From the NCBI RefSeq assembly GCF_005871085.1, contig NZ_VAUP01000015.1, forward strand, positions 248,001-312,000: a DNA stretch of 64,000 nucleotides, written 5' to 3'. The stretch comes from Xanthobacter autotrophicus (lineage in GTDB: Bacteria > Pseudomonadota > Alphaproteobacteria > Rhizobiales > Xanthobacteraceae). Position numbers and translations under genes: made by a program. The notes under the pieces are model-generated. The model was not told the DNA's origin. It saw only the letters and a program-made list of their open reading frames with translations, and did no database searches. Shown piece by piece: positions 33,975 through 37,770 of the stretch (positions within the stretch are counted from its first letter, which is position 1; each line of letters opens with the position of its first letter).

Positions 33975-34198
33975 GGCGCCTTATAGACCCGTCGGCCGCC
34001 CGGGCAATGCGGGCGGAGGCCGCGCCGCAGCTAACGCTGCGCAATGGTGCGGGGTGCTGTCGTCGAAGTGTTATGTTGAGGTCGTAGTCAGCAAGCCTGA
34101 AGATCCGGCTCCATCGGCCCGACCGGGCCGTGCCGCCCCATGCGAGCCGGGTTTCAAAGTCGCGCGCCGGACCCGATCCGGCATGGGAAGGCGGTGCC

Positions 34199-36136
34199 AT
34201 GCGAAAATCCCAGATCGTCGAAGAGCTTGGCGAAGGCGAATTGCTGCTCCCCGCTCTCATCGAGACGGCGCTCCTGGCCAATGACCGGGCGAAGCTGCGC
34301 ATGACCGCGCTTCAGGAGGCCGTGGCCCATGCCAAGGCGCCGCTGCGCGCGGTCCGCCTCATGGCTGCGGAAGCCCGCGCCGCCGGGGCCGCCGAGGATG
34401 GGCTCGATGCGACCGTGGCCGGCGCCCAGATCGTGGACGGTGGTTATGCCATCCCCGGAGCCCGGCGGCTGATGGATGGCATCCTCGACGACATCGCCGC
34501 CATGACCACGCCGCTGGATGCCGCGCAGGCGTCCGCCGCCTCCGGTTTTTCCGATCGCCTCGCCGGCTTGCGCGCGGCCTTCGCCGGCAGCGCCGGCGAT
34601 GTGCTGGACGAACGGGCCCTGGTGCGCCTCACCTCCGCCCGGCGCGGGGGCGAGGACAGCGCCCACCTTCTCGTCATGGACCTGCACAAGGCGCTTAACC
34701 AGCTCTCCGCCACCATCGCCGCCGAGACCATTGCAGGAGCCCGCGCGCTCGGCGTGCTGGCGCAGGACCATGCCCGCATCGAGGCTTTCATGGCCGGGCT
34801 CAACCGCACTCGCGGCCTCGCCTTCGGCCATCCCGGGCTGGACACCACGGCCAGCCGTTCCAGCGCGCGCCTGATCCTCCAGAACGACATCGGCACCACC
34901 GATGCCCACGTGATCATCCTGGCGGTGGAGGGGCTTGATGCCACCGTGACCTATACCGACGTGCACCGCTCGCGCGCCAAGTTCTTCATCTCCCTGTTCC
35001 GGGATTTTTCCGCCACCTGGACGCCGTTGGCCGAACGCAGCGTGGCGGGCCTCGCCGAAGGCGGCAGCTTCTTCCTGGTGACGGGGCGCTACTCCGCGCG
35101 GGACACCGCCGATCTCGACACCTTCCTCGATGCGGTGGGAGCGCACCTCGTCTTCCTCATCGACTGGAACAAGGCGCGCAAGACGCTCCAGACCTTCGTG
35201 GACAAGGCCACCGCCATCCGCCTCCTCACCGACGCCGCGCGTGCCCGCTTCGGCCACCGGGCCTTCCTGGAGCTGGGCGGGGCGGAGTTGATCTTCGATG
35301 CGGTCCGGCGCAGCGCCGAAGGCCGCGTGCCCTATGGCGCCCGCCTCGACCGGGTTCTGGGCGTCGGCTCCGTGGCGCGGCTTCTGGGAGAAGTGTTGCG
35401 GCTCACCAGCGAAGGGCTCGGCGCCCAGCGCTCGGTCCGGCTGATCAAAGACGAGGTGCGGGCGGAACTGGCCCGCAGCTTCGGCTCGGCCGAGCAAGAG
35501 GTGCTCGCCATGGCGCTCACCCAGCTCGGGCTCGCCCGGATGCTGGCCGCCGAGGTGGCCGAAGCCCTCGACGAACCGGGAGACGGGGGAGATAGCATCC
35601 GCGCCGCCTTCCAGCGCCGTGCCAAGCGGCTGGAGGAGAAGGCCGACCGGCAGGTGCTCGCGGCCCGCGATCTGGCGAGTGGCCCCTTCGGCCGCGGCCG
35701 ACGCTTCCTACCCCTCGCCGAATGGGTGGAGGAGGCGACCGATTCGTTCGAGGAAGCCGCCTTCCTGCTCGGCACCCATTCACGGCGGCAGACCACGGAC
35801 GCCGCCGCGCCGCTCGCGGAACTGGTGAGCGTGGCCATGGCCTGCTGCGGCGACCTCGTGCGTGCCGTGGCCGCCGCCTGCGAGGGACCCGCGGGCCGGC
35901 GCGAGGACATCACCGACGCGTTGGAAGCCATCGACGCCGTGATGGAAGGCGAGCGCCGCGCCGATGCGGCCCATCGCCGGGTTCTGGCGGCCGTCCTGGG
36001 CGACCCGGCTCCAGGGCCGGCGTCCGCGCTGGTGGCGACCATGGAGGTGGCCCGCGCCATGGAGACCGGCACCGACCACCTCGCCCGCGCCGCCCTGGCG
36101 CTGCGCGCCTGTGTTCTGGAGGAGGTGGGATCGTGA
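34199..36136 (+). CDS. Large protein of unknown function with a PhoU/DUF47-like C-terminal region
   Basis: A 645-residue protein, largely alpha-helical and without signal peptide or membrane segment. I do not recognise residues 1-470; they contain SSARLILQNDIGTTDAHVII and VTYTDVHRSRAKFFISLFRD, with a conserved look but no motif I can name. Residues about 480-645 resemble PhoU/DUF47 phosphate-related helical bundles (RRAKRLEEKADRQVLAARDL, WVEEATDSFEEAAFLLGTHS, REDITDALEAIDAVMEGERR). ATG at 34199 follows GGGAAGG. Its TGA overlaps the GTG start of the PPDK-like gene (GTGA), so the two proteins are probably made together. A phosphate or phosphotransfer role is inference. Confidence 0.6.
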   Translation: MRKSQIVEELGEGELLLPALIETALLANDRAKLRMTALQEAVAHAKAPLRAVRLMAAEARAAGAAEDGLDATVAGAQIVDGGYAIPGARRLMDGILDDIAAMTTPLDAAQASAASGFSDRLAGLRAAFAGSAGDVLDERALVRLTSARRGGEDSAHLLVMDLHKALNQLSATIAAETIAGARALGVLAQDHARIEAFMAGLNRTRGLAFGHPGLDTTASRSSARLILQNDIGTTDAHVIILAVEGLDATVTYTDVHRSRAKFFISLFRDFSATWTPLAERSVAGLAEGGSFFLVTGRYSARDTADLDTFLDAVGAHLVFLIDWNKARKTLQTFVDKATAIRLLTDAARARFGHRAFLELGGAELIFDAVRRSAEGRVPYGARLDRVLGVGSVARLLGEVLRLTSEGLGAQRSVRLIKDEVRAELARSFGSAEQEVLAMALTQLGLARMLAAEVAEALDEPGDGGDSIRAAFQRRAKRLEEKADRQVLAARDLASGPFGRGRRFLPLAEWVEEATDSFEEAAFLLGTHSRRQTTDAAAPLAELVSVAMACCGDLVRAVAAACEGPAGRREDITDALEAIDAVMEGERRADAAHRRVLAAVLGDPAPGPASALVATMEVARAMETGTDHLARAALALRACVLEEVGS

Positions 36137-37770
36137 CAACCCTCAGCGCGCGCCTGTCCGACTCGGACGAAACCCACGGCTCCCACGGGGCGGCCTCGCC
36201 CCTCATCGGCTTCATCGGACCCGGCGGCGACACGCAGCCGCTCTCCGCCCACGCCTTCGGCTCCAAGGCGGCGCAGCTGTGGCGCATGAATGCCCTCGGC
36301 CTCAACGTGCCGCCGGCGTTCGTGCTCTCCACGGCCCTGTGCGGCAAGGCCCACGCCGAAAAGCGCATCGGCGCGCTGCTGGAGCAGGGCATCGCCTATC
36401 TCGAACGGGTCACTGCGCGCGGCTTCGGCGATCGGCGCCGGCCGCTCCTCGTCTCGGTGCGGTCGGGGGCGGAGAAATCCATGCCCGGCATGCTGGAGAC
36501 GGTGCTGGACGTGGGCATGACCGCCGCGACTACCCGCGGCCTCATGCGCCTTTACGGCAATCCGCGCCTTGCGGCCGATTGCCGGCGGCGCTTCATCGAG
36601 GGCTATTGCGAGGTGGTGGCGGGCCTGCCGCGCGGCCCGTTCGAGGACGTGCTGCGCGCCGTTCAGACCGCCGAGGATGTCACATCCGACCGGGAGCTGG
36701 ATCCCGAGGCGCTGGACCGGCTCGCCGGCCTTTATCTCAATCTCGCCCGCGACCGGTTCGGCACCGCCATCCCCGAGGAGCCCATGGACCAGTTGCGGGC
36801 GGCGGCCGAGGCCGTGTTCCGCTCCTGGGATGCGCCCAAGGCGCAGGACTATCGGCGCCTCAACCACCTGGAGGACCTGTCGGGCACGGCGGTGACGGTG
36901 CAGGCCATGGTGTTCGGCAATGCCAGCGCCCGCTCGGGCTCCGGCGTCGCCTTCTCCCGCGACCCCGCCACGGGCGCGCCGGGCCTTTATGCGGACATGC
37001 TGTTCGAGGCCCAGGGCGAGGACGTGGTCTCCGGACGCCGCCAGCCGGTGGGGCTCGGTCGGCTTGAGGCCATGCTGCCGGACGTGGCGACACAGCTCGC
37101 CGATGGCGTCGGCGCGCTGGAAGCGGCCTATCGCGACGTGCAGGACGTGGAATTCACCTTTGAGGACGGCCGCCTGTTCTTCCTTCAGACCCGGTCCGCC
37201 AAGCGTACGCCCCGCGCGGCGCTGAAGATCGCGGTGGACCTCGTGGCCGAGGGGGTGCGGACCGAAGCGGAAGGCCTCGCCCTGCTCGACGGCATCGACC
37301 TGTCGCAGGTGGGAACCACGCGCTTCACCGGCACGGCGGAAGTGGCAGCGCGGGGCGTGGCCGCCTCTCCGGGCACGGTAAGCGGGCGTATCGCCTTCGA
37401 CGGCGAGGCGGCCAAGCGCCTCTCGGAGGGCGGGGAGCCCGTCATCCTGGTGCGGCCGGACGTGGCAACCGACGATATCGCCGGCATGGCGCTGGCGGCC
37501 GGCGTGCTCACCCGCGTCGGCGGGCGCACCGCCCACGCCGCGGTGGTGGCGCGTCAGCTCGGGCGGGTCTGCGTGGTGGGGTGTGCGGCGCTTGCGATCG
37601 ATCTCGACTCACGCAGCGCCCGTCTCGGCCCAGCGGAGGTCCGGGAAGGCGACTGGGTGTCGCTGGACGGCGACGAAGGCACGGTCTTCGTCGGCCGCCG
37701 CGAGAGTGTCGTGGACCGTCCCGAGGCGGACCTTGCCACGGTGGCGGGCTGGACGGCGCGCGCGCGATAG
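36133..37770 (+). CDS. Short PPDK-like protein: ATP-grasp and phosphohistidine domains without the PEP-binding barrel
   Basis: A 545-residue protein collinear with the first two thirds of pyruvate phosphate dikinase. The ATP-grasp part shows GSKAAQLWRMNALGLNVPPA, SVRSGAEKSMPGMLETVLD, GTAVTVQAMVFGNASARSGS and DVEFTFEDGRLFFLQTRSAK, with the Arg, Glu and Gln positions of the nucleotide site kept. The swivelling domain has the phosphohistidine, His468, in GGRTAHAAVVARQLGRVCVV. The protein ends about 75 residues later, so the roughly 350-residue PEP/pyruvate TIM barrel is absent (normal PPDK about 880-900). It could charge its histidine from ATP and pass the phosphate to another acceptor. It is translationally coupled to the upstream gene. 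Confidence 0.8.
   Translation: MTTLSARLSDSDETHGSHGAASPLIGFIGPGGDTQPLSAHAFGSKAAQLWRMNALGLNVPPAFVLSTALCGKAHAEKRIGALLEQGIAYLERVTARGFGDRRRPLLVSVRSGAEKSMPGMLETVLDVGMTAATTRGLMRLYGNPRLAADCRRRFIEGYCEVVAGLPRGPFEDVLRAVQTAEDVTSDRELDPEALDRLAGLYLNLARDRFGTAIPEEPMDQLRAAAEAVFRSWDAPKAQDYRRLNHLEDLSGTAVTVQAMVFGNASARSGSGVAFSRDPATGAPGLYADMLFEAQGEDVVSGRRQPVGLGRLEAMLPDVATQLADGVGALEAAYRDVQDVEFTFEDGRLFFLQTRSAKRTPRAALKIAVDLVAEGVRTEAEGLALLDGIDLSQVGTTRFTGTAEVAARGVAASPGTVSGRIAFDGEAAKRLSEGGEPVILVRPDVATDDIAGMALAAGVLTRVGGRTAHAAVVARQLGRVCVVGCAALAIDLDSRSARLGPAEVREGDWVSLDGDEGTVFVGRRESVVDRPEADLATVAGWTARAR

Follow-up and report, generated by a model that had tools for sequence, protein, structure and literature searches.

The 64-kb window, by which we mean the whole stretch of DNA analyzed here, carries two overlapping genes, P1 and P2, that on balance we take to encode a split dikinase, in which P1 would replace the acceptor domain that P2 has lost. 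This reading draws on the retention in P2 of the catalytic residues and His468, the absence of the PEP/pyruvate barrel, the strict pairing of the two genes, the correlation between their divergences (r = 0.97), the single clade formed by the short dikinases and a strongly conserved core in P1. The first-pass annotation had already proposed a two-protein phosphotransfer system; the pairing, co-divergence, single short-form clade and catalytic residues now support that proposal, whereas phosphate transfer itself is what we infer from them. The P1 stop codon and the P2 start codon overlap in the sequence GTGA at 36133-36136, exactly as first described, and the coordinates, the protein lengths (645 and 545 amino acids) and the position of His468 all proved exact.

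Features of the P1-P2 locus, with positions counted from the first nucleotide of the window
Feature	Position	Strand	Description
P1	34199..36136	+	645 aa; C terminus PhoU/DUF47-like, N terminus without family match
P1 core, residues 152-345	34652..35233	+	highest conservation; alpha/beta in model; no PDB fold match
P1 PhoU/DUF47-like helical domain, residues 412-645	35432..36133	+	four ExxxD pairs
P2	36133..37770	+	545-aa truncated dikinase; GTG start
P2 ATP-grasp (PPDK_N), residues 40-390	36250..37302	+	invariant K45, R110, R153, D338, E340, Q352, R354
P2 phosphohistidine swivel (PEP-utilizers), residues 400-520	37330..37692	+	His468 codon 37534-37536
Upstream element, kept in Xanthobacter	34057..34086	+	CTGTCGTCGAAGTGTTAT...GTCGTA; two TGTC-type half-sites 11 bp apart

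A dikinase without its barrel and a partner with a PhoU-like C terminus

Pfam recognized two domains in P2, PPDK_N (7e-34) and PEP-utilizers (6.7e-20), and no other. The pyruvate phosphate dikinase (PPDK) model TIGR01828 matched only over positions 16-524 of 865, with a score of 488 against a cut-off of 843, and NF004531, which describes a 534-aa short form, gave 432 bits, slightly below its cut-off of 456. Residues 40-526 aligned with dikinases in the PDB (E = 6e-119), and K45, R110, R153, D338, E340, Q352, R354 and His468 were invariant in an alignment of 24 sequences that takes in the full-length PPDK of the same genome. Work on the Clostridium enzyme indicates that the counterparts of these residues in PPDK bind and act on ATP and phosphate. 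Both the retention of the ATP-grasp residues and His468 and a shortfall of about 350 residues covering the PEP barrel had been read from the sequence at the outset, and both were borne out: the full-length PPDK of the same genome is 350 residues longer, and P2 stops where the PEP/pyruvate barrel would start.

A frameshift separating P2 from a downstream barrel had been named as an outcome that would overturn this picture. It did not occur, as a search of the 64-kb window with the last 350 residues of the full-length PPDK found no counterpart (best E = 0.43). When 60 proteins were placed in a tree, the paired P2 sequences formed a single clade (100/100) apart from the full-length PPDKs; this tree, from which VadK (see below) was left out, is midpoint rooted and contains some long rows and therefore does not give the direction of domain loss. 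Because the window holds no barrel sequence and the short dikinases group in a clade of their own, we rejected a frameshift or lost-barrel artifact. The domain loss in P2 is real.

The suggestion that the C terminus of P1 is PhoU/DUF47-like also held. Pfam PF01865 matched 11 of 22 P1 homologues (best 1.7e-7), although the P1 sequence of the window, searched alone against Pfam, gave no PhoU match; a profile of the C terminus matched PDB entry 3l39 (2.7e-5) as well as Pit-adjacent DUF47 proteins and PhoU, and Foldseek searches with the P1 model returned PhoU-like structures with a target-normalized TM score of up to 0.81. Four ExxxD pairs (E479/D483, E511/D515, E585/D589 and E622/D626) are conserved, which we take to be the metal motifs of PhoU/DUF47 proteins. 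By profile and model, then, the C terminus is PhoU/DUF47-like, with a predicted helical-bundle fold. Domains of this kind are usually regulatory. A weak Acetate_kinase match to P1 (E = 0.076), present in 1 of 22 members, was taken as chance.

The N-terminal ~390-400 residues, which had been left without assignment, matched no Pfam family and no PDB fold and stayed unassigned after profile searches as well. Residues 1-391, modeled separately (pLDDT 87), gave a best PDB match of E = 0.016 with TM scores of 0.18-0.23, and the model bore only small ACT-like and YbjN-like resemblances. No rifampin phosphotransferase (RPH), PEP synthase (PEPS) or PEP-barrel fold was among the P1 matches listed, and Pfam found no PEP-utilizers domain in P1. 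We therefore rejected the description of P1 as an ordinary PhoU/DUF47 protein for its N-terminal 60%, which has no family or fold match. This region includes the most conserved stretch of the protein, a core (residues 152-345) that exceeds the PhoU-like domain in conservation, holds many invariant residues (His, Asp, Asn, Lys and Arg), among them five histidines (H156, H163, H211, H237 and H256), and carries the motifs QNDIGTTDAH, TYTDVH and FLIDWNKARK.

Pairing, distribution and genomic context

Each of the 22 relatives in the initial set had P2 next to P1, with P1 leading. Among further loci the pair was adjacent in 78 of 80, that is, in 78 of the 78 with room for it, since in the other two (L065 and L123) the contig edge lies within or just after P1 and P2 is not readable. 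Altogether, both proteins could be read at 100 distinct loci, and at all 100 they were adjacent and in the same order. This survey of neighborhoods, proposed as a check when the pair was first noted, thus gave the opposite of the result that had been set down as a refutation, namely, a pair not conserved together. Pairwise distances among P1 sequences tracked those among P2 sequences (r = 0.97; Mantel p 0.001), a correlation that joint inheritance of neighboring genes would also produce. Two Xanthobacter genomes carry a far more distant P1 (44% identity) and an equally distant P2 (53%), as if the two genes had been exchanged together.

The closest relatives of P1 among named genome records are from Xanthobacter, which very probably places the window in that genus. 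In total, 533 stretches, from several hundred genome records, encode a P1 relative, and the module is known mainly from alphaproteobacteria. Its occurrence is patchy: at the family level, 33 of 200 genomes had P1, although two of these matched only marginally and at the C terminus, and 9 of 289 genomes sampled from the class had it. The best short P2 matches in the class sample belonged to these nine genomes, and the other matches listed were nearly all full-length frames. Plasmids of the betaproteobacterium Aquabacterium olei and of Methylocella carry the pair as well. Public annotation calls P1 a “DUF47 family protein” or “phosphate transport regulator” and P2 a “PEP/pyruvate-binding domain-containing protein.” One Methylocella tundrae record (NZ_LR536451; L198:1851-4194) shows the pair broken into several small ORFs, probably through an assembly error; it is intact in another record of this species (L188).

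A constant third gene was sought beside P1-P2 across the loci, and none was found; neither Pit nor Pst is a constant neighbor, and phosphate-linked neighbors occur singly (phosphonate genes at L098, pstSCA at L199). At the latter, an IMG/VR contig (L199:2202-8259) that is classed as viral and may be host DNA, P1-P2 is divergent from the pstSCA phosphate-transport genes. Two Roseiarcus-type loci (L072:6353-7972 and L075) have, immediately before P1, a gene for a CYTH-CHAD protein, a class with links to polyphosphate. In Tistlia consotensis (L070:4842-7802), the directly upstream, co-directional gene encodes PEP carboxylase. In 16 Bradyrhizobium-type loci, the co-directional gene directly upstream encodes phosphoketolase, usually accompanied by acetate kinase; the phosphoketolase-acetate kinase gene pair of B. 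diazoefficiens is a FixK2 target (PMC9104804).

The region upstream of P1 contains a predicted FixK/FNR-type box (TGATCTnnCGCAA-type, of the form TTGA-N6-TCAA) in 51 of 79 loci outside Xanthobacter (35 of 73 with the ORF starts used for the control genes), compared with 0.02 expected from shuffled sequence and with 6 of the 845 control genes taken from those loci. These motif matches occur across several alphaproteobacterial orders, and one of them, TTGATCCAGCGCAA, has exactly the sequence of a box that is listed as a FixK2 site. They suggest that P1-P2 is induced under scarce oxygen in many lineages. No such box was found upstream of P1 in the Xanthobacter lineage of the window, where a different element is conserved: 11 bp separate its TGTC half-sites, and GTCGTA follows downstream. 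Tentatively, this element is possibly PHO-box-like. PHO-box scores upstream of P1 were raised. Outside Xanthobacter, we rejected a PHO box, as a FixK/FNR-type box accounts better for the conserved element.

Relationship to known dikinases and a candidate mechanism

What dikinases have in common is an ATP-using engine and a mobile phosphohistidine; the product is set by the third domain. RPH and PEP synthase follow the same logic as P2, with a swivel histidine moving between two sites, although P2 is of the PPDK type and not of the PEPS or RPH type. P2 is 40-45% identical to PPDK over the ATP-grasp and swivel domains and keeps its catalytic residues, but PPDK has the PEP/pyruvate barrel, whereas P2 lacks it and forms a separate clade. 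P1 (residues ~412-645) shares a predicted fold and four ExxxD pairs with the Pit- or Pst-associated PhoU/DUF47 proteins (PF01865), from which it differs in having ~400 more N-terminal residues and in adjoining a dikinase instead of Pit or PstB. Two sets of characterized proteins bear on the arrangement. VadK (Rv1127c) of Mycobacterium tuberculosis is a truncated dikinase that autophosphorylates on the equivalent histidine (PMC13400623); like P2, it is PPDK derived and has the ATP-grasp and phosphohistidine domains without the PEP/pyruvate domain, but no P1-type partner has been reported for it, whereas P2 always lies beside P1. In HpeHI, CreHI and PpsAB, the dikinase is divided between two chains, both of which are required (PMC12167813). 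These systems share with P1-P2 the distribution of a dikinase with a phosphohistidine swivel over two proteins, but in them the swivel is joined to the acceptor-binding domain and the ATP-grasp is separate, whereas P2 holds ATP-grasp and swivel together; P1 also differs from their acceptor chain in having an unrelated predicted fold and a PhoU-like domain. Within a limited library, we found no literature on a DUF47-dikinase pairing or on a PhoU-like partner with such an N terminus, and a search with guessed locus tags found no paper naming the B. diazoefficiens pair genes. Truncated and split dikinases are thus both known, and what appears new, as far as this limited literature goes, is their combination with a conserved PhoU-like partner.

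Other dikinase arrangements were also seen. On plasmids of Diaphorobacter sp. HDW4B (L191:1571-5455) and Rhodococcus oxybenzonivorans (pRB98; L189:1333-6451), a 206-aa protein without a Pfam family directly precedes a dikinase, and a separate PEP-utilizing protein is encoded nearby; the Diaphorobacter dikinase is truncated, at 506 aa, and that of Rhodococcus has 835 aa. On a Streptomyces atratus plasmid (L190:3252-5608), a truncated 548-aa dikinase directly follows a 211-aa “transcriptional regulator.” The short dikinases of Streptomyces and Diaphorobacter fall outside the P2 clade in the 60-protein tree.

In the split dikinase that we favor, the ATP-grasp domain of P2 would bind ATP and pass the beta-phosphoryl group to His468, as suggested by the conserved residues and by VadK. 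Because P2 is PPDK derived, the gamma phosphate would probably go to inorganic phosphate, releasing AMP and PPi. Given established family chemistry and the VadK precedent, autophosphorylation of P2 is likely. With no PEP/pyruvate barrel to serve, the swivel would dock on P1 as a substitute third domain and deliver the phosphate to a ligand bound in the alpha/beta core or to an invariant histidine of P1; docking, transfer and acceptor are steps that we infer. We assign P1 to the acceptor side because in HpeHI, CreHI and PpsAB the dikinase is split over two chains that are both needed, and an acceptor supplied by P1, whether a bound molecule or a residue of its own, fits such two-component dikinases. 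A possible role of the PhoU-like domain is to bind metal and to make transfer responsive to phosphate or energy status, and in many lineages, although not in that of the window, which lacks the box, the module would be induced at low oxygen.

Three points count against a split dikinase: VadK apparently works without such a partner, the N-terminal fold of P1 has no known substrate-binding relative, and the usually regulatory role of PhoU-like domains suits a different reading, in which P2 would be a regulatory histidine kinase of the VadK type, with metabolic enzymes as its targets, and P1 would serve as its phosphate or metal sensor or its scaffold, not as an acceptor-binding catalytic subunit. 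We consider this second reading unlikely, though deserving of weight. P2 is truncated as VadK is, and VadK interacts with metabolic enzymes (PMC13400623); P1 has its PhoU-like domain, and neighbors include genes for phosphoketolase, acetate kinase, PEP carboxylase, phosphonate functions and pstSCA. Set against this, none of these neighbors is constant, and conservation in P1 peaks in the core, whose invariant His, Asp, Asn and Lys residues look like an active or ligand site and not like a scaffold.

It is highly improbable that P2, regulated by P1, borrows the PEP/pyruvate domain of full-length PPDK in trans. The P1-bearing genomes of the class sample do mostly also match full-length PPDK, but such co-occurrence is expected, because PPDK is present in 214 of the 289 sampled genomes with or without the pair; moreover, P1-P2 is also found on plasmids, and we know of no precedent for borrowing this domain in trans. 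As for P2 being a decaying or frameshifted PPDK without function, the absence of one domain is what such decay might leave, but some 100 loci, spread over many genera, end the protein at this very boundary and keep the catalytic residues invariant, and no barrel sequence follows P2, so that we give this explanation practically no credence.

If P1-P2 is a split dikinase, a conserved protein of unrelated type would here take the place of the third domain, all within a compact two-gene module. Metabolic models would be misled if P2 were automatically annotated as a pyruvate phosphate dikinase. More tentatively, and with less confidence than we place in the split dikinase itself, the N terminus of P1 may be a new dikinase acceptor domain. 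The outcome would be a phosphorylated metabolite or a phosphorelay not known before, which in alphaproteobacteria would link energy charge, phosphate (through the PhoU-like domain) and, in many lineages, low-oxygen metabolism. P1-P2 is a counterpart of the VadK-type truncated dikinase that comes with a partner, and it offers a tractable system for finding the acceptor.
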